NCBI GenBank assembly: GCA_017448975.1
Contig: JAFSKN010000014.1
Coordinates: 1-40,134, forward strand
DNA: 40,134 nt
Origin: Clostridia bacterium
GTDB lineage: Bacteria; Bacillota; Clostridia; Christensenellales; Aristaeellaceae
Direction of reading: 5' to 3'
The position numbers were made by a program, and so were the translations under genes. This document shows, piece by piece, positions 31,777-40,134 of this stretch. The notes below the pieces were generated by a model. The model worked only from the letters and a program-made list of their open reading frames with translations, was not told the DNA's origin and made no database searches. Each line of letters opens with the position of its first letter. The first letter of the stretch is position 1.

Positions 31777-31798
31777 TGCCTCTAAAGGGGAATTGGTT

Positions 31799-34180
31799 AT
31801 GAAGAAAATCGACGTTCACCTGCACGCTTCATCCGTGGATCAGGCCCGGGAAAGCCTGGATTACCTGCGGGGAAAGGGTGTTGCCCACGCCATTCTGATG
31901 AGCGTAGAGGAAACCGAACTTAACCGGGAAATCTGCGCCCAGGCGCCCGATCTGCACTGGATGTGCGGCTTAAGCGGAGAAAACCCCGATACTGTGTTTG
32001 ACCAACTGGCGGAATACAAGGAAGCGGGGGCCATCGGCGTTGGCGAGCTGTGCGTGAATCAGCGCATGGACAGCCCCTTCCTTGAGGCCCTGTTCGGGGC
32101 GGCGGAGAGCCTGGAAATGCCGGTGCTTTTCCATATGAGCCCGGAGGTGGGCTTCCAGTACGGCATCGTGGACGAGCCGGGGCTTCCGCTGCTGGAGGAA
32201 ACGCTGAAAAAACATCCTCATTTAAAGATCATCGGTCACAGCCAGCCCTTCTGGATCGAAATATCCGGCGATGCGCCGACGGACAGGGAAGGCCGCAACG
32301 GACGGGGCGAAGGTCCCGTCGCTCCCGGGGGCCGGGTGGTGGAGCTTTTGCGGAAATACCCCAACCTGTACGCCGATTTGTCCGCGGGCAGCGGGTTCTG
32401 CGCCATCGTGCGGGACGAAGCGTTTGGGTTAAAGTTTTTGGAAGAATTCCAGGATCAGCTGCTGTTCGGCACCGACACCGTGGACGTAAACAGCCCCTGG
32501 CAGCCGCCCCTGGCCGACTGGCTGGAAGAAAAATACGCGGCAGGCCTGATTTCCGCCTCCGTCATGCGGAAAATCTGCTGCGAAAACGCGGAAAAACTGT
32601 TCGGCAAGCTGCTCCACGACGATGAAAACACCGTTACGATCGACACCCCCTGCGGCCCGATCAAGGGGCTGCAAGATGAAAAGCGAAAAGCGTACTTGGG
32701 CATTCCCTACGCCAGCGCGGAGCGGTTCGCCTATCCCATCGTCACCACCCACTGGGAAGGGACCCTGGACGCCACGGATTTTGGCCCGTGCAGCTGGCAG
32801 TTCCGGGCTTTCCGTTCGGAAGCGCTGGGCGAAGACCCCTTCTATTACCACGAATTCCGCCAGGACATCCCCTTCCGCTACGGCGACGACTGCCAGCGGC
32901 TGAACATCTGGACGCCTTTACAAAAGCCGGACAAGCCCCTGCCCGTGATCGTCTACATTCATGGCGGCGCGTTCCTGGGCGGCAGCAGCGGGGAAAAGCA
33001 CCTGGCTCCGCCCTGCTGGACGGAAGAAAACGTGATCGCCGTTTCCCTCAATTACCGTTTAGGGCCCTTCGGTTTCCTCTGCGCCTCCGACGGCGTGCGG
33101 GAAAGCGGGCATACCGGCAACTACGGCATTTACGATCAGCTGGCCGCCCTGCAATGGGTGCATGACAATATTTCAGCCTTTGGCGGCGATCCGGACAATG
33201 TGACCCTCATGGGCCAAAGCGCGGGCTGCATGAGCGTCCAAATGCTGTGCATCTCCCCCAAGGCCAAGGGGCTGTTCCGCCGGGCGGTGCTGTGCTCCGG
33301 GGCGGGCCGCAGCGAGTTCTTCGATGGAAAAAACACCATGGAAGAAAACCTGTCCTTCGGGGACGCGGTGATGGACGCGCTGGGCTGCAAAACCATGAAG
33401 GATATGCGGCATGTGAGCGCCTGGAGGATTCAGAAGACTTTTGGCGAATTATTGATGAAAGCGAACCGGGGCCTTGCGGTGACCTCCCCCGTCATTAACG
33501 GCGACCTGATCCCCTGCCCGGTGAGCACGGCCATCGAAACCAGGCTGCTCCACAATATCCCCTATATCCTCTGCTCCACCGGTCAGGACCTATGGCAGCC
33601 CGAACTGTACCACGCCATCCTGAAATGGGAGGACGAGGCGGAAACCATCACCCAGGCGTCCCACGAATACTTCGCAGCCCTGTTCGATCTGGCCCGCCAG
33701 CTCGATCCCCAGCGCCGCCCGGTGACCGGCGTGCTGGAAAAGACCAGCAGCCCGGACCGCTGCCAGTGCTACCCGCTCATGGATTTCATCTGCCTGAACC
33801 GGTATTACGGCTGGTACATCAGCGGCGGCGATCTCAAGGGCGCGGAAGCCCAGTTCATGGAAGAAATGGATCAGTGGGCAGAAAAGAACCTGCACGTGCC
33901 CTTTGTGTTCACCGAATTCGGCACCGACACCCTGGACACCCTGCACAAGCTGCCCAGCGTGATGTGGAGCCAGGAATACCAGAGCGAATACATGGACATG
34001 AATTTCAGCGTCTTTGACCGCTACGCCTTCGTTCAGGGCGAATTGGCCTGGAACTTCGCCGATTTCCAGACGGGCCAGGGGGTCTTCCGGGTCAACGGCA
34101 ACAAAAAGGGCCTGTTCACCCGGTCTCGCCAGCCCAAGGACGCCGCCTACACCATGAAAAAACGCTGGGAGGAAAAATAA
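31799..34180 (+). CDS. Chimeric ORF: amidohydrolase + truncated carboxylesterase + truncated beta-glucuronidase
   Basis: 793 aa in one open frame. Residues 1-275: a complete amidohydrolase-2-type TIM barrel (DVHLHAS, FHMSPE, IGHSQPF, LLFGTDTVD) with metal ligands. About 278-605: type-B carboxylesterase from its usual first residues (TVTIDTPCGPIKGL) through HGGAF and nucleophile GQSAG, but broken off before the region with the catalytic His. About 608-793: the end of a GH2 beta-glucuronidase, beginning just after where the acid/base NEP motif would be, keeping the nucleophile in FTEFGTDT and the NFADF and FTRSRQPK motifs. So only the amidohydrolase part looks complete. Start ATG after AAGGGG. 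Either gene decay by in-frame deletions or misassembly; GH3 follows one base later. Confidence 0.8.
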   Translation: MKKIDVHLHASSVDQARESLDYLRGKGVAHAILMSVEETELNREICAQAPDLHWMCGLSGENPDTVFDQLAEYKEAGAIGVGELCVNQRMDSPFLEALFGAAESLEMPVLFHMSPEVGFQYGIVDEPGLPLLEETLKKHPHLKIIGHSQPFWIEISGDAPTDREGRNGRGEGPVAPGGRVVELLRKYPNLYADLSAGSGFCAIVRDEAFGLKFLEEFQDQLLFGTDTVDVNSPWQPPLADWLEEKYAAGLISASVMRKICCENAEKLFGKLLHDDENTVTIDTPCGPIKGLQDEKRKAYLGIPYASAERFAYPIVTTHWEGTLDATDFGPCSWQFRAFRSEALGEDPFYYHEFRQDIPFRYGDDCQRLNIWTPLQKPDKPLPVIVYIHGGAFLGGSSGEKHLAPPCWTEENVIAVSLNYRLGPFGFLCASDGVRESGHTGNYGIYDQLAALQWVHDNISAFGGDPDNVTLMGQSAGCMSVQMLCISPKAKGLFRRAVLCSGAGRSEFFDGKNTMEENLSFGDAVMDALGCKTMKDMRHVSAWRIQKTFGELLMKANRGLAVTSPVINGDLIPCPVSTAIETRLLHNIPYILCSTGQDLWQPELYHAILKWEDEAETITQASHEYFAALFDLARQLDPQRRPVTGVLEKTSSPDRCQCYPLMDFICLNRYYGWYISGGDLKGAEAQFMEEMDQWAEKNLHVPFVFTEFGTDTLDTLHKLPSVMWSQEYQSEYMDMNFSVFDRYAFVQGELAWNFADFQTGQGVFRVNGNKKGLFTRSRQPKDAAYTMKKRWEEK

Positions 34181-34181
34181 A

Positions 34182-36437
34182 ATGAAGACCGCGAAAGAAC
34201 TCGTTCGTGAAATGACCTTAGAAGAAAAATGCTCCATGCTGTCCGGCCTGGATTTCTGGCACACCCAGCCCATCCCGCGCCTCGGCATCGAAGCCGTGAT
34301 GGTGTCCGACGGCCCCCACGGTCTGCGCAAGCAGGCGGAAAAGACCGACCACTTAGGCCTGAATGAAAGCATCCCCGCCGTGTGCTTCCCCGCCGCCTGC
34401 GCCATGGCGGCCAGCTTTGACCGTGCGCTTCTGCGCCGGGTGGGCGAAGCCATGGGCGATCAGTGCCAGCATGAGCAGGTGGGCGTGAACTTAGGCCCCG
34501 CCATCAACATCAAACGTTCCCCCCTGTGCGGGCGCAACTTTGAGTACATGAGCGAAGACCCCTACCTGGCCGGTGAATTAGCCGTCAGCCTGATCCAGGG
34601 CGTACAGAGCAAAAACGTGGGCGTCAGCGTGAAGCATTTCGCCGCCAACAACCAGGAGCACCGCCGCATGTCCAGCGACAGCGTGGTGGACGAAAGGACC
34701 CTGCGGGAAATCTACCTGCCCGCCTTTGAAGCGGCGGCCAAGCGGGGCCATGCCTGGACCTTCATGTGCTCCTACAACAAGCTGAACGGCGAATACGCCA
34801 GCCAGCACAAGTGGCTGCTCACCGACCTGCTGCGCAAGGAATGGGGCTTTGACGGCTACGTGATGAGCGACTGGGGCGCGGTCAGCGACCGGGTGAAGGG
34901 CGTGGAAGCGGGCCTCGATCTGGAAATGCCCTCCAGCAACGGGGAACGGGACCGGGCGGTGATGAAGGCCGTTCAGGAAGGCCGTCTGGATGAAAAGTAC
35001 GTGGATCAGGCGGTGGAGCGCATTCTGGACGTGAACCTGCGGTATCTCAACAATGCCAAACCGGAAACGCCCTGGGACAAGGAAGCCGATCACGCCTTAG
35101 CGGGCCGGGCGGCCGCCGAGTGCATGGTGCTGCTGAAAAATGAGGACAATATCCTGCCTTTGAAGAAGGAAGAAAAAGTGGCCGTCATCGGCGAATTTGC
35201 CGCAAAGCCCCGGTATCAGGGCGGCGGCAGCTCCCACATCAACAGCTTCAAGGTCACGTCCCTTTTGAACGCTTTAGCGGGCGAACAGAATATCACCTAC
35301 GCCCAGGGCTGCGCCATCAAATCCGAAGAAACAGACGCCGCCCTGCTTGCGGCGGCTGTGGAAGCGGCGAAGGCGGCGGACAAGGCCGTGGTGGTGGCGG
35401 GGCTTCCTGACAGCTTTGAGAGCGAAGGCTACGACCGCACGCATATGCGCATGCCGGAAAACCAGGTGGCGCTGATCGAAGCGGTGGCGAAAGCCAATCC
35501 CAACACGGTGGTGCTGCTGTACAACGGGTCTCCTGTGGAAATGCCCTGGATCGACTGCGTAAAAGGCGTGATCGAAGGCTATCTGGGCGGCCAGAACGTG
35601 GGCTTTGCCAGCCGCGCCGTGCTGTACGGCGAAGTGAACCCCTGCGGACGCCTGCCCGAAACCCTGCCGGAGCATTTGGAGGACACGCCCTGCTACCTCA
35701 CCTACGGCGGAGAAGGCAACCGTGCGGAATACACGGAAGGGGTGTTCGTAGGCTACCGGTGGTATACCAGCAAGCTGCAGCCCGTGCTGTTCCCCTTCGG
35801 CTACGGCCTGAGCTACACCCAGTTTGCATATGCCAACCTGCGCCTGTCCGCAAACAGCATCAAGGATACCGATACCGTGACCGTGCAGGTGGACGTGACC
35901 AATATCGGCGCTGTGCCCGGCAAGGAAGTTGTGCAGCTGTACGTGGCCCCGCCCAAAACCGATTTGATCCGCCCCGTCCGGGAACTCAAGGGCTTTGAAA
36001 AGGTGGAGCTCCAGCCCGGCGAAACGAAAACCGTATCCTTCACTTTGGACGAGCGCTCCTTCGCCTACTGGAACACGGCCCTGCACGGCTGGCACGTGGT
36101 CAGCGGCGATTATGATATTCAAATCTGTCGGAACGCGGAAGAAGTGGAGCTGGGGGCCAGCCTCCAGGTGACCGGCACCAAAGCGCCGCCCCGGCATTAC
36201 GATGCCGACACCATCGTGATGGATTTGGACGAGCGTGCTATGGGCATCCTCCAGGAAACCATGCAGGGGGCCATGGGCGTGATGGGCGGCGGGGAAGAAG
36301 CGGGCGAGGACGCCGCCATCAACGCGGAAATGAGCATGGCCATGATGCGCTATATGCCCCTGCGCACCTTCGTTTCCTTCGGCAGCATGACGCTTCAAAA
36401 TTTGGAACAGCTTCTTGACCAAATGAACAAGGAATAA
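34182..36437 (+). CDS. Glycoside hydrolase family 3 beta-glycosidase
   Basis: 751 aa. N-terminal GH3 barrel with VSDGPHGLRK, KHFAANNQEHRR and nucleophile Asp230 in VMSDWGA; C-terminal alpha/beta domain with probable acid/base Glu415 in ESEGYDR; fibronectin III-like domain about 560-670 (FPFGYGLSYTQF start); then a Met-rich tail ending MRYMPLRTFVSFGSMT, seen in other clostridial GH3 enzymes. No signal peptide, so it acts in the cytoplasm on imported oligosaccharides, probably as beta-glucosidase or beta-xylosidase. It appears intact, unlike its neighbours. AGGA-rich ribosome site lies in the preceding ORF, one base apart. Confidence 0.93.
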   Translation: MKTAKELVREMTLEEKCSMLSGLDFWHTQPIPRLGIEAVMVSDGPHGLRKQAEKTDHLGLNESIPAVCFPAACAMAASFDRALLRRVGEAMGDQCQHEQVGVNLGPAINIKRSPLCGRNFEYMSEDPYLAGELAVSLIQGVQSKNVGVSVKHFAANNQEHRRMSSDSVVDERTLREIYLPAFEAAAKRGHAWTFMCSYNKLNGEYASQHKWLLTDLLRKEWGFDGYVMSDWGAVSDRVKGVEAGLDLEMPSSNGERDRAVMKAVQEGRLDEKYVDQAVERILDVNLRYLNNAKPETPWDKEADHALAGRAAAECMVLLKNEDNILPLKKEEKVAVIGEFAAKPRYQGGGSSHINSFKVTSLLNALAGEQNITYAQGCAIKSEETDAALLAAAVEAAKAADKAVVVAGLPDSFESEGYDRTHMRMPENQVALIEAVAKANPNTVVLLYNGSPVEMPWIDCVKGVIEGYLGGQNVGFASRAVLYGEVNPCGRLPETLPEHLEDTPCYLTYGGEGNRAEYTEGVFVGYRWYTSKLQPVLFPFGYGLSYTQFAYANLRLSANSIKDTDTVTVQVDVTNIGAVPGKEVVQLYVAPPKTDLIRPVRELKGFEKVELQPGETKTVSFTLDERSFAYWNTALHGWHVVSGDYDIQICRNAEEVELGASLQVTGTKAPPRHYDADTIVMDLDERAMGILQETMQGAMGVMGGGEEAGEDAAINAEMSMAMMRYMPLRTFVSFGSMTLQNLEQLLDQMNKE

Positions 36438-36444
36438 GGCTTGA

Positions 36445-36759
36445 ATCAAGCTGAATTTCCAGGGCGCATTGCTTCCCGCCCAGACCTTTGCCAAGGACAG
36501 GGTGGCGCGCAAGCGCGGCTGCATCCTGAACATTTCCTCCATGAACGCTTACATCCCGCTGACCAAAATCCCCGCCGATTCCGGCGCGAAGGCCGCCATC
36601 AGCAGCTTCACCCGGTGGCTGGCGACCCACTTCACGGGCGGCGGCATCCGGGCCAACGCCATCGCCCCCGGCTTCCTGGTGAGCGGCCAGAACCGGGCCC
36701 TGTGCTTTAACCCGGACGGAACGCCTGCCGCCCGTTCCGAAATTTGCCATGATCGGTAA
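36445..36759 (+). pseudogene. Internal fragment of an SDR oxidoreductase (D-mannonate oxidoreductase-like)
   Basis: About 104 residues from KLNFQGALLPAQTFAKD to RSEICHDR. GCILNISSMNAYIPLTKIP and GIRANAIAPGFLVSGQN are short-chain dehydrogenase sequence resembling D-mannonate/fructuronate oxidoreductases. The N-terminal NAD(P)-binding part and the C-terminus are missing, and the catalytic YxxxK reads DSGAK, so Tyr is now Asp. Non-functional remnant of a uronate pathway gene. Confidence 0.8.
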
Positions 36760-36802
36760 AAAGAATAATTGATTATACTGCAAGGGGTACAAAAACAACG
36801 TA

Positions 36803-36831
36803 TTGACAGATCACGAAGAATGAAATACGAT
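36803..36831 (+). promoter_or_regulatory. Promoter of GH105 gene
   Basis: TTGACA (36803-36808), 17-nt spacer, TACGAT (36826-36831), about 70 nt before the start. Confidence 0.65.
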
Positions 36832-36900
36832 ATTTCCGAATCATGGAAAACAAAAACGCGAAACGATAGCATCTTTCATCGCGATTGGGAGGACTGAACC

Positions 36901-38019
36901 GTGGACAAGAAGCTGCTGAACGAAAAACTGGATCTGGTGATCCATAAGCTCATGCACCTGGACGCAGCCGACGCGGAGCTTGCCAAAAACGCCTCCAAGG
37001 AAGACCGGAAAAAGGGCATGTTCGCCAGGGATTTTGGCATCAGGGAATGGGACTGGCCCCAGGGCGTGGGCCTGTACGGCCTGCTGCAATTGCAGGCGTG
37101 CCGGGGAAACCGGGACTACGACGCATTCCTGCTCCAATGGGTGAAGGACAACCTGGCCATCGGCCTGCCTTCCGTCAATATCAACACCACGGCCCCCTTC
37201 CTTACCCTGTTCGACCTGACGGAGCGCTATGACCTGCCGGAATGGGAAGCGCTGTGCGAGGAACGGGCGGATTATCTGGTTCACATCCTGCCGAAGACTC
37301 AGATGGGCGGCTTTGAACACGTGACCAGCCACGCCACGGATCGGAACGACGTATCGCGGAACCCGGAACAGCTGTGGGCCGACACCCTGTTCATGGCCGT
37401 GCTGTTCCTTGGCAGGATGGGCGTGCGCCGCGGCAATCAGGAATGGATCGACGAAGCGGTTTACCAATACCTGCTCCACATCAAGTACCTGGCGGACAAC
37501 CGCACCGGCTTCCTCTATCACGGCTGGACCTTCCAGGAACACAGCAATTTCGGCGGCATCTTCTGGAACCGGGGCAATTCCTGGTTCACCTACGGGGCGG
37601 TCATGTTCCTGAAAGCCATGGAAGGCCATATCAGCGGGGCGGACAGGCGTTTTATTCTAAGCGCCTGGAAAAACCAGGTGGACGCGCTGGTCAAGGTCCA
37701 GGACCCCTGCGGTTTATGGCATACCATCCTGACCGATCCAAGCTCTTATCTGGAGACCTCCGGGTCAGGCGCTGTTGCGGCAGGCATATTGGCAGGCATT
37801 CGCTTTGGTTATCTGGATGAAACCTATCTGCCCGCGGCCGAGAAAGCAGCAGAGGCGCTGCTCGATTACGTGGACGACGACGGTTTGGTGGGCAATGTGT
37901 CCGCCGGTACGGGCATGGGCATGGACGCCCAGCACTATAAAGATATTCTGATCCGGCCCATGGCCTACGGCCAGTCCCTCACGGCCCTGGCGCTGACGGA
38001 AGCGCTGTATCTGGCGTAA
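36901..38019 (+). CDS. Glycoside hydrolase family 105, unsaturated glycuronyl hydrolase
   Basis: 372 aa, (alpha/alpha)6-barrel family of YteR. These enzymes hydrate the unsaturated uronic acid left at the end of pectin or rhamnogalacturonan fragments by lyases. Asp161 in QLWADTLFMA matches the catalytic Asp of YteR, and RGNSWFTYG plus LWHTILTDPSSYLETSGSG are family signatures. No signal peptide: cytoplasmic. GTG start with GGGAGGA upstream and its own promoter. Complete and in good shape, so pectin-fragment use probably persists in this strain. Confidence 0.93.
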   Translation: MDKKLLNEKLDLVIHKLMHLDAADAELAKNASKEDRKKGMFARDFGIREWDWPQGVGLYGLLQLQACRGNRDYDAFLLQWVKDNLAIGLPSVNINTTAPFLTLFDLTERYDLPEWEALCEERADYLVHILPKTQMGGFEHVTSHATDRNDVSRNPEQLWADTLFMAVLFLGRMGVRRGNQEWIDEAVYQYLLHIKYLADNRTGFLYHGWTFQEHSNFGGIFWNRGNSWFTYGAVMFLKAMEGHISGADRRFILSAWKNQVDALVKVQDPCGLWHTILTDPSSYLETSGSGAVAAGILAGIRFGYLDETYLPAAEKAAEALLDYVDDDGLVGNVSAGTGMGMDAQHYKDILIRPMAYGQSLTALALTEALYLA

Positions 38020-38232: not shown

Positions 38233-39519
38233 TTATTCGCGGATGGCCCCGAAGCCGTTTTCCAGATCGGCGATGATATCGTCGATGTGCTCCGTGCCGA
38301 TGGACAGGCGGATGGTGTTGGGTTTGATGCCCTGATCCAGCAGTTCTTCCGGGCTCAGCTGGGAATGGGTGGTGGAGGCCGGATGGATCACCAGGGATTT
38401 TACGTCCGCCACGTTGGCCAGCAGGGAGAAGATTTTCAGGCTGTCGATGAAGGCCCAGGCTTCCTTCTGCCCGCCCTTGATTTCAAACGTGAAGATGGAT
38501 GCGCCGCCCTTGGGGAAATACCGTTCATACAGGGCGTGGTCGGGATGTGACCGCAGGGAGGGATGGTTCACCTTTTCCACCAGGGGATGGTTTTGCAGGA
38601 ATTCCACCACTTTTTTGGTGTTTTCGGCGTGCCGGTCCAGCCGGAGGGACAGGGTTTCCACACCCTGCAAAAGCAGGAAAGCGTTGAAGGGGGAGATGGA
38701 CGCGCCGGTGTCCCGAAGCAGGATGGCGCGGATATAGGTGACGAAGGCCGCCGGGCCCACCACGTCATAGAAGGATACCCCGTGATAGCTGGGGTTGGGC
38801 GCGGCGATGTTGGGATATTTCCCGCTGGCCTTCCAATCGAATTTCCCGGATTCCACGATGATGCCGCCCAAGGTGGTGCCGTGGCCGCCGATGAATTTGG
38901 TGGCGGAGTGCACCACGATGTCCGCGCCGTGCTCGATGGGGCGGATCCAGTACGGGGTGCCGAAGGTGTTGTCGATCACCAGGGGCAGGCCGTGCTTATG
39001 GGCGATTTCCGCGATGGCGTCGATGTCTGGAATGTCGCTGTTGGGGTTGCCCAGGGTTTCCAGGTAAACGGCCCGGGTGTTGTCCTGAATAGCGCTTTCC
39101 ACTTCTTTGAGATTGTGGGCGTCCACAAAGGTGGTGGAAATGCCGTACTGGGGCAGGGTATGCGAAAGCAGGTTGAAGCTGCCGCCATAAATGGTCTTCT
39201 GGGCCACGATGTGCCCGCCGTTGGCAGCAAGCGCTTCGATGGTGTAGGTGATGGCCGCCGCGCCGGAGGCCACCGCCAGGGCCGCGCTGCCGCCCTCCAG
39301 GGCAGCCATGCGCTTTTCCAGTACCTCCTGGGTAGAATTGGTGAGTCTGCCGTAAATGTTGCCCGCGTCCGCCAGGCCGAAGCGGTCGGCGGCGTGCTGG
39401 CTGTTGTGGAACACATAAGAGGTGGTCTGGTAAATGGGCACCGCACGGGCGTCGGTGGCGGGGTCGGCCTGCTCCTGGCCTACGTGAAGCTGCAGGGTTT
39501 CAAATTTATAGTTACTCAT
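38233..39519 (-). CDS. O-acetylhomoserine (thiol)-lyase / sulfhydrylase
   Basis: 428 aa from the ATG at 39519 (AAAGGAG upstream; the frame is open further, but into leader sequence). PLP enzyme of the Cys/Met metabolism family that makes homocysteine (from sulfide) or methionine from O-acetylhomoserine. PLP Lys208 in VVHSATKFIGGHG; LETLGNPNSDIPDID and VIDNTFGTPY are typical of MetY-like enzymes. Preceded by a regulatory leader (39572-39819). Confidence 0.94.
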   Translation of the reverse strand: MSNYKFETLQLHVGQEQADPATDARAVPIYQTTSYVFHNSQHAADRFGLADAGNIYGRLTNSTQEVLEKRMAALEGGSAALAVASGAAAITYTIEALAANGGHIVAQKTIYGGSFNLLSHTLPQYGISTTFVDAHNLKEVESAIQDNTRAVYLETLGNPNSDIPDIDAIAEIAHKHGLPLVIDNTFGTPYWIRPIEHGADIVVHSATKFIGGHGTTLGGIIVESGKFDWKASGKYPNIAAPNPSYHGVSFYDVVGPAAFVTYIRAILLRDTGASISPFNAFLLLQGVETLSLRLDRHAENTKKVVEFLQNHPLVEKVNHPSLRSHPDHALYERYFPKGGASIFTFEIKGGQKEAWAFIDSLKIFSLLANVADVKSLVIHPASTTHSQLSPEELLDQGIKPNTIRLSIGTEHIDDIIADLENGFGAIRE

Positions 39520-39571: not shown

Positions 39572-39606
39572 AAAAAACCGGGGGCTGTTTTCTAAGCTCC
39601 CGGGCA
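39572..39606 (-). terminator. Leader terminator, candidate attenuator
   Basis: On the minus strand: TGCCCGGGAG..., stem CCGGGAGCT/AGCCCCCGG with an 8-nt loop, then T6 (39577-39572), lying between the leader peptide and the sulfhydrylase gene. The 5' arm (39606-39597) is perfectly complementary over 10 nt to 39702-39693 inside the leader ORF, so the two pairings exclude each other. Confidence 0.75.
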
Positions 39607-39635
39607 CATGACAGACAGAAGAAGGAGAATCGATT

Positions 39636-39758
39636 TCATCCCCTCATCCAATGGCGCGTGGATAAACAGCCGAACGCCCCTGCCACGGAACCTGCCCGGG
39701 AGTAAAGCATTCGACAGCACATAATGCTCTGCTGTTTGCGAACCACGGTTTCGGACAT
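39636..39758 (-). CDS. Cysteine-containing leader peptide
   Basis: 40-codon ORF starting at 39758 with AGGAGG eight bases upstream, shortly after a consensus promoter. It begins MSETVVRKQQSI and then has Met13-Cys14-Cys15-Arg16-Met17, with a third Cys at 31. The antiterminator segment begins 11 nt after the second Cys codon, so a ribosome halted at the Cys codons would leave it free. No protein function expected; likely a sensor of charged tRNA-Cys (or Met). Confidence 0.68.
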   Translation of the reverse strand: MSETVVRKQQSIMCCRMLYSRAGSVAGAFGCLSTRHWMRG

Positions 39759-39790
39759 CCCTCGCGCCTCCTTTCGGATGAAGTATCTGC

Positions 39791-39819
39791 ATGATAGCAC
39801 GATTTGCCTACTATGTCAA
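39791..39819 (-). promoter_or_regulatory. Promoter of leader and sulfhydrylase gene
   Basis: On the minus strand TTGACA (39819-39814), 17-nt spacer, TATCAT (39796-39791). Confidence 0.75.
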
Positions 39820-39895
39820 TAGGTAATTTGAATTTTTTCAATTTTTTCGTTCACTTCATGATCCATAAGGGTTTGATCGCCAGGCATAGGATGAG

Positions 39896-39985: not shown

Positions 39986-40134
39986 TCAGTATGCAAACTC
40001 TCCCTCGAACACGTGGGTGGCTTCGCCGGTGAGGGTGATTTTTTCCTCCGTGCAGCGCACGGTCAGGTCTCCCCCGGCCAGCTTCACCACGATGTCCTTG
40101 TCCGCCGGGCACACGCCGGTTTTCACCGCGGCGG
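39986..40134 (-). CDS. dapF: Diaminopimelate epimerase, C-terminal part (runs off window)
   Basis: Last 48 residues of an ORF that continues past the right edge. The sequence AVKTGVCPADKDIVVKLAGG, then GDLTVRCTEE, LTGEATHVFEGEF matches the end of DapF, which converts LL- to meso-diaminopimelate for lysine and peptidoglycan. The catalytic Cys regions are outside the window, so the call rests on the C-terminal pattern (GG.L.V...., LTGPA..VFEGE). Confidence 0.72.
   Translation of the reverse strand, partial: AAVKTGVCPADKDIVVKLAGGDLTVRCTEEKITLTGEATHVFEGEFAY

Follow-up and report, generated by a model that had tools for sequence, protein, structure and literature searches.

A conserved leader element, predicted to act as a cysteine-responsive transcription attenuator, precedes OAHS and other sulfur amino acid genes in Clostridia

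The stretch of DNA analysed in this study (the window) comprises 40,134 nucleotides of contig JAFSKN010000014.1 from an uncultured, gut-type Clostridia bacterium of the Aristaeellaceae (GCA_017448975.1). A gene on the minus strand (38233..39519) was identified as encoding an O-acetylhomoserine aminocarboxypropyltransferase/cysteine synthase (OAHS), with a score of 626 bits for TIGR01326 (cut-off 495) and a match to PF01053. All leader features described below are located upstream of this gene and on the same strand. A sigma-70-type promoter (39791..39819) was recognized by its sequence, with the −35 box TTGACA at 39819–39814, a 17-nt spacer and the −10 box TATCAT at 39796–39791; a loosely defined −35/−10 pair was also found in 116 of 132 relatives. 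It is followed by a Shine-Dalgarno (SD) sequence, AAAGGAGG (39767..39774), and by a leader ORF of 40 codons, MSETVVRKQQSIMCCRMLYSRAGSVAGAFGCLSTRHWMRG (39636..39758), which starts with ATG at 39758, ends with TGA at 39636 and is supported by homologues in other genera and by a frame control. The ORF encodes Met-Cys-Cys-Arg-Met around two adjacent Cys codons, TGC TGT (39714..39719). The 10-nt sequence CTCCCGGGCA (39702–39693), located 11 nt 3′ of these codons, is the exact reverse complement of TGCCCGGGAG (39606–39597), which belongs to an intrinsic terminator (39572..39603) made up of a stem (39603–39578) and a T6 tract (39577–39572). A preliminary description had proposed that these parts form a cysteine-sensing transcription attenuator, and every detail checked of its coordinates for the promoter, the leader ORF, the Cys codons, the 10-nt pair and the T6 terminator was confirmed. 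It had not noted the further 5 bp of the antiterminator, a probable protector hairpin, an operator palindrome together with an Rrf2 gene, or a Met codon that is as conserved as the Cys codon.

Pairing segments were assigned along the leader. Segment 1, GUCGAAUGC (39707..39715), is the 5′ arm of the probable protector, assigned from its pairing with segment 3, GCGUUCGGC (39669..39677), the 3′ arm, which was also placed by folds. Segment 2, CUCCCGGGCA (39693..39702), is the 5′ arm of the antiterminator and was assigned from its covariation with segment 4; its extension, GUGGC (39682..39686; consensus AUGGC), showed both-side changes in 5/5 extension pairs. Segment 3′, CGCC (39653..39656; consensus CGCCUC), is an alternative partner of GGGGCG at 39680–39675, on the basis of pairing and a covariation score. 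Segment 4, UGCCCGGGAG (39597..39606), provides both the antiterminator 3′ arm and the terminator 5′ arm and has an extension, GUCAU (39608..39612; consensus GCCAU), both assigned by covariation; the terminator was assigned by pairing and a covariation score.

The last 149 bases of the window (39986–40134) recur with 99–100% identity at the ends of contigs C30 and C17, which is either a repeat or an assembly-graph overlap at a contig break. On the plus strand, a single 795-aa frame (31793–34180) contains an amidohydrolase domain, a carboxylesterase domain and a GH2-type C-terminal TIM barrel; truncated genes have become fused here, or the assembly is chimeric. Genes for a GH3 glycosidase and a GH88 hydrolase (34182–38019, plus strand) lie between this frame and the convergent OAHS gene and are perhaps a plant-glycan locus.

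The absence of a SAM riboswitch or T-box motif, noted in the preliminary description from the letters alone, was borne out by an Rfam search, in which no family reached its gathering score in the leader region of the window; neither a T-box (RF00230, at gathering score) nor a SAM riboswitch (RF00162) was found in the window. Six loci searched at gathering score matched no Rfam family, and at E-values up to 0.1 six OAHS orthologue loci, two with the leader (L228, L232) and four without it (L234–L237), gave no T-box, SAM riboswitch or other Rfam match apart from one tRNA. For sulfur amino acid genes, T-boxes and SAM riboswitches are the textbook controls in Firmicutes. Elsewhere in the same genome, the T-box model matched 16 times, once above the gathering score, and the SAM riboswitch model once; the leader thus departs from the usual devices, which this genome also uses. 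Leader peptides have been treated as exceptional in Firmicutes in the relevant part of an earlier study (PMC2965389).

The leader was found to belong to a family of related elements. A leader protein search in 150 genomes of the family Aristaeellaceae turned up 11 more places that share the core and the DNA segments, some of them in other genera; including the window, 10 of these 12 early places lie before OAHS, one before cysK in the window's own genome and one before an ABC permease gene. The tally of 66/150 genomes from the first leader-peptide search was discarded because its weak-score matches mix real and chance ones: L014 (E 0.006) and L015 (E 0.017) were judged by eye to be unrelated, and five places with E-values of 0.5–0.6 (G098:C3, G132:C1, G055:C92, G082:C123, and G104:C30) were later matched by a covariance model. 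A degenerate core pattern matched at least 119 stretches in contigs representing one genome per species. Among the 80 matches listed, the titles were mostly of Clostridia (Lachnospiraceae, Ruminococcaceae, Saccharofermentans, Butyrivibrio, and Blautia), with one record titled Phascolarctobacterium (L061) and one Eggerthellaceae (L104); the same pattern gave 0 stretches in IMG/VR viral contigs. Named isolates that carry the element include Butyrivibrio proteoclasticus P6B7 (L091) and Lachnospiraceae bacterium AC2029 (L087). With the own genome counted at each level, the covariance model matched in 55/308 genomes of the family, 5/200 of the order, 13/391 of the class and 5/398 of the phylum. Three of the five phylum matches lie outside the class (L253–L255) and are followed by proteins that resemble OAHS by eye. 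Altogether 175 candidate elements were collected, mostly from Clostridia with a few outside that class, of which at least three (L135, L151, and L198) look like chance matches. One partial model match (L220; G094:C31:20719-20855) retains the terminator side and has lost the Cys core, and is perhaps a decaying copy.

Within the genus, 20 genomes were sampled by presence or absence of the element, eight with a model match (own genome excluded) and 12 without; at least 20 genus genomes were listed without a model match. OAHS was present at the set cut-off in 11 of the 20, and in one sampled genome all OAHS copies were truncated. All six close OAHS orthologues (93–97% identity) with a readable 5′ region carried the leader, and all belonged to the element-bearing group. 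The group without the element contained no close OAHS orthologue; it held four OAHS genes of 72–73% identity, all without the leader. In this sample, which was selected by the element itself, the element follows the close OAHS orthologue. The sequences examined indicate that the leader, antiterminator and terminator before OAHS are parts of a conserved and widespread element.

A downstream ORF was present in the available DNA for 168 of the 175 elements; for the remaining seven, the available sequence stops within 360 nt. The ORFs were clustered, and the clusters were named from ten representatives with NCBIfam, five of these also with Pfam. The counts, near-duplicates included, were 99 OAHS genes, 37 binding proteins of MetQ or cystine type, 13 ABC permeases, five PepT-like M20 peptidases and four cysK genes. 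A glutamate-cysteine ligase-like gene, an SDF symporter, a DUF2292 gene and a rhodanese gene were found once each, as were a frame without an assigned class (L083) and an ORF that by eye resembles an iron alcohol dehydrogenase (L151). The frames after L208 and L209 are probably other frames over a permease gene, and those after the two chance-like elements L135 and L198 match no class. Three binding proteins (those of L039, L041, and L048) scored below the cut-off with MetQ/NlpA models, and that of L039 also matched cystine-binding-type models. The pattern and model searches were made without use of downstream gene identity, and the genes found fit the amino acid of the leader codons, being mostly sulfur amino acid genes. 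Four leaders located before binding-protein genes (L039, L094, L110, and L115) form a subtype with the core CRM..SRA..GxVHS and extra Cys codons near the end.

Because the core pattern prescribed TGNTGTCGAATG together with a portion of segment 2, conservation of these letters among pattern hits is no evidence. Frame usage was compared in 131 relatives: an SD sequence and a start codon in frame were found in 124, compared to 9 and 10 in the other two frames. A second sample consisted of 57 model-found elements, which are free of the pattern but come from a model trained on pattern hits and an alignment fitted to its structure; they were picked by hand, leaving out near-duplicates, further copies of used loci and L220, a partial match (model positions 21–165) with the core lost. 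Of these elements, 56 had an SD-led frame running through the core with its Cys and Met, and the 57th (L210) had the Cys in the family frame and no SD by the same test. A second SD-led frame was also open in 10 of the 56, and the +1 frame also contains a Cys codon in 54/57, since the same letters read VVEC there. The residues next to the core Cys varied (C, M, W, S, F, Y, V, T, K, L or G), with core variants such as MCRM, GCRM, CGRM, CMRM, CMFRM, KCRM, CCCEM, and CCCCM. The preliminary description had suggested aligning the leaders of relatives, and this comparison showed the core Cys to be kept before different genes while its neighbours vary. The last leader residue is Cys in 46 of 133 non-redundant leaders, which derive from 165 of 167 elements, two with N having been dropped; outside the core, Cys makes up 6.5% of residues in these leaders. 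The leader ORF thus appears to be translatable and contains codons of the amino acid of the pathway.

The position of the stop codon is nearly constant, at a median of 30 nt 5′ of segment 4 (10–90% range 22–39) and 13 nt 3′ of segment 3′. Based on the usual ribosome footprint, a ribosome at a stop codon 13 nt past segment 3′ would be expected to cover that segment.

The antiterminator comprises 15 bp, i.e., the 10 bp of segments 2 and 4 and an AUGGC:GCCAU extension. It was examined in a 75-row alignment made from 93 hits, from which L042, L101 and both L064 places were removed by hand, as well as L085 (stretch end), eight near-duplicates and then, by hand, L052, L065, L069, L075, and L106. Over these 75 leaders 93.6% of the cells were paired, 8/15 pairs had changed on both sides and all five measures were reached in 0/500 shuffles. 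When the helix was slid, paired cells dropped to 22–48%. In the 57 model-aligned elements, 93.4% of the cells were paired and 10/15 pairs had changed on both sides (0/500 shuffles); in neither sample do the shuffles take relatedness among sequences into account. The antiterminator helix thus covaries strongly. The complementarity of the two 10-nt segments, which had been claimed from a single sequence, also exceeded chance expectation: a contiguous downstream partner of at least 9 bp for segment 2 was found in 88 of 93 collected relatives (the exceptions being L042, L070, L091, L101, and L117), compared to 13/465 controls with segment 2 shuffled; the search pattern fixed part of segment 2 in 81 of the 93, and not its partner. 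Both complementary segments are hence retained in relatives, with compensatory changes.

For the terminator, 78.7% of cells were paired and the covariation score was reached in 0/500 shuffles, with both-side pair changes matched by 152/500. Values for 3:3′ were similar (78.1% of cells paired; covariation score 0/500; both-side changes matched by 28/500), and 3:3′ slid by −2 was still 73.3% paired. The protector 1:3, in which segment 1 is fixed by the search pattern, was paired in 83.3% of cells over 75 leaders and showed no covariation, 400/500 shuffles pairing equally. A hairpin 2:2′ was rejected, having 82.3% of its cells paired yet no covariation signal. The consensus fold contained only the antiterminator helix, with no closed aptamer-like core. 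With segment 4 in common, antiterminator and intrinsic terminator are predicted from the sequence to be mutually exclusive.

In equilibrium folds of the full-length leaders, the antiterminator had a probability above 0.5 in 56/75 leaders as free RNA, in 46/75 with a ribosome at the stop codon and in 64–65/75 with a stalled ribosome; in the window it was 1.00 in free RNA and 0.97 with a ribosome at the stop codon. Equilibrium folding was therefore rejected as proof of switching, because the antiterminator dominates most leaders in every state. As it is more stable in most leaders even without a stalled ribosome, the OFF state requires kinetic control. Folds were also computed for transcripts truncated 5′ of segment 4. 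For the window, 1:3 had a probability of about 1.0 both in free RNA and with a ribosome at the stop codon, and 0 on stalling, since a ribosome on the Cys codons masks segment 1; 3:3′ was weak, with a probability of only 0.05 on stalling. Over the 75 leaders, the mean probability of 1:3 was 0.47 with the ribosome at the stop codon and 0.00 when stalled (above 0.5 in 29/75 free folds and 36/75 ribosome-at-stop folds), and that of 3:3′ was 0.10 and 0.31, respectively. 1:3 was higher at the stop codon in 48/75 leaders and 3:3′ was higher on stalling in 38/75. These modelled folds of cut transcripts fit the logic of a trp-type attenuator.

The −35 box of the window promoter is enclosed by a palindrome, ACCTATTGACATAGTAGGC (39806..39824), for which a pattern search of the own genome was carried out. 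Two exact copies of the form ACCTA-N9-TAGGT were found there, one at each of the genome's two elements (before OAHS and before cysK), and no further copy with up to three mismatches; a reversed control pattern gave three matches within three mismatches. TTGACAT[AG]GT or a close variant was present in 83 of 132 relatives. The cysK element of the own genome adjoins an Rrf2 gene in divergent orientation. The Rrf2 protein is related to CymR and IscR and below both curated cut-offs (91.7 bits with the CymR model NF047409, cut-off 195), passing only the Rrf2 superfamily model TIGR00738; its PDB sequence matches include the CymR chains 2y75 and 3t8r. Among 107 non-redundant elements with 800 nt upstream, a divergent Rrf2 gene was found within that distance in 17 and none in 90, and the intergenic regions of the 17 loci contained 17 operator-like matches in total. 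Four loci (L035, L061, L078, and L109) have a second site of the CCTATT...AATAGG type, in full or in part, nearer the Rrf2 gene, which may be its own operator. Judged by these sequences, the promoter palindrome is probably the operator of a CymR/IscR-like Rrf2 regulator.

The most probable explanation, to which we assign a probability of about 0.8, is that the region is a ribosome-mediated transcription attenuator sensing Cys-tRNA, behind a promoter that a CymR-like Rrf2 protein probably represses. The sequence itself shows the parts and how they are conserved, the covariation of 2:4, the reading frame and the association with particular genes, and the kept core Cys, the sulfur amino acid genes downstream and the compensatory 2:4 changes support the cysteine-sensing role proposed in the preliminary description. 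Our account of ribosome placement, order of folding, signal (cysteine, possibly methionine) and repressor is inferred and runs as follows. When cysteine is ample, the leading ribosome would pass the Cys codons, reach the stop codon and cover segment 3′, so that segments 1 and 3 could pair, segment 2 would be held in that hairpin and segment 4 would fold with segment 5 into the terminator; the order for the OFF state would be protector first and terminator next. When Cys-tRNA is short, the ribosome would halt at the Cys codons and cover segment 1, its footprint ending just 5′ of segment 2. Segment 3′ would then take segment 3, and segment 2 would be free to pair with segment 4 over up to 15 bp; with this antiterminator formed, RNA polymerase would continue into the sulfur gene.

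The same leader might instead sense methionine, or cysteine and methionine jointly as a multivalent attenuator, with the Met codons around the Cys pair also acting as stall codons. The core Met is as constant as the core Cys, being kept in the SD-led family frame of 56/56 model-found elements, and the signal may therefore be Cys plus Met; this Met stays even where the Arg is lost (L177, L221). At position −2, which was free in the search pattern, Met occurred in 88 of 133 non-redundant leaders, while it makes up 5.1% of residues outside the core. MetQ-like genes and OAHS are among the genes presumably controlled, and OAHS makes homocysteine, the methionine precursor. However, position −2 is Cys in 20 of the 133 leaders and Trp in six, so that this Met can be replaced; the AUG after the Arg codon is part of segment 1, so that pairing may be the reason for its retention; and cysK, glutamate-cysteine ligase-like and ABC permease genes are presumably controlled too. 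We consider a role of methionine possible, though somewhat doubtful.

It is very unlikely that a small molecule makes the nascent peptide arrest the ribosome, with the Cys-tRNA level being irrelevant. The peptide core CRMxxSRAxxMAGAF is unusually conserved and in part prescribed by the search pattern, but its conserved residues coincide with RNA pairing segments and residues −6 to −4 are variable. At codon +15, 41 of 133 leaders have Gly and 21 have Asp, while the base pair at this site remains U-G or U-A in 56/74. That the repressor acts alone, the terminator being a constitutive damper and the leader peptide having no sensing role, is highly improbable: the element does come with a palindromic operator, and at some loci a CymR/IscR-like gene is present as well, but the kept Cys codon, the kept frame, the near-constant stop position and the covarying antiterminator would be left unexplained. 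A ligand-binding riboswitch or protein-binding terminator with an incidental ORF, suggested by strong RNA conservation and alternative pairing, is hardly credible in view of the frame preference, the lack of an Rfam match in the window leader and the loci searched, and a consensus fold without an aptamer-like core.

Trp-type attenuators of enterobacteria combine leader codons, protector, antiterminator and terminator with a repressor at the promoter. The element described here has the same order of parts and a promoter repressor is likewise predicted; it differs in that its ORF spans segments 1, 2, 3, and 3′ and ends some 30 nt short of the terminator arm. Polycysteine leaderless short ORFs were reportedly found in mycobacteria by Canestrari in 2020. 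As far as these ORFs are described in PMC13236596, they are similar in that Cys codons of an upstream ORF control cysteine genes, and the mode is termed translation attenuation; for earlier actinobacterial and mycobacterial Cys leader candidates, the part of PMC1262725 concerned reports no conserved terminator hairpin in mycobacteria. The present leaders differ from both accounts in having an SD-led ORF and an intrinsic terminator. The uORFC-8-2 motif before cysS in Rhodobacterales, for which ribosome-mediated attenuation was predicted, resembles the element in having tandem Cys codons in a short ORF inside a stem, with a terminator after it (PMC8632094). It differs as an alphaproteobacterial motif of cysS only, whereas the present element occurs in Bacillota before a multi-gene sulfur set and has a near-constant CRM-SRA core and an antiterminator arm within the ORF. 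His leaders before hisS/hisZ in bacilli are, as outlined in PMC2965389, similar examples of Firmicute leader-peptide attenuation replacing T-boxes, for histidine, other genes and another class. The CymR regulon of Bacillales and Clostridium shares an Rrf2 regulator and a cysteine gene set (PMC3828012; background also in parts of PMC3766115), and the relevant passages of PMC3828012 mention no leader-peptide attenuator. No description of a Cys leader element of this kind was found in open-licence PubMed Central, and the element is apparently uncatalogued. New are the 15-bp antiterminator, the probable protector over the Cys codons, the placing of the stop codon some 30 nt ahead of the terminator arm, and the promoter inside a palindrome, sometimes beside a CymR/IscR-like gene.

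In the own genome, OAHS and cysK carry a leader-peptide attenuator, as predicted here, despite the T-box and SAM riboswitch matches elsewhere. Being short, conserved in sequence and easy to find, the element marks out a candidate sulfur regulon across many gut and rumen bacteria, most of them uncultured. It is of use in linking transporters and peptidases to cysteine supply and offers a directly testable two-layer switch. More speculatively, and with a good deal of doubt, it may represent an undescribed cassette of gut and rumen Bacillota, combining a CymR/IscR-like repressor site with a six-segment attenuator mostly inside the leader ORF, in which Met-Cys-Cys-Arg-Met would read both sulfur amino acids and the stop position would set the OFF state by masking segment 3′. 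If true, this cassette would replace T-box and SAM control across the whole cysteine/methionine regulon.
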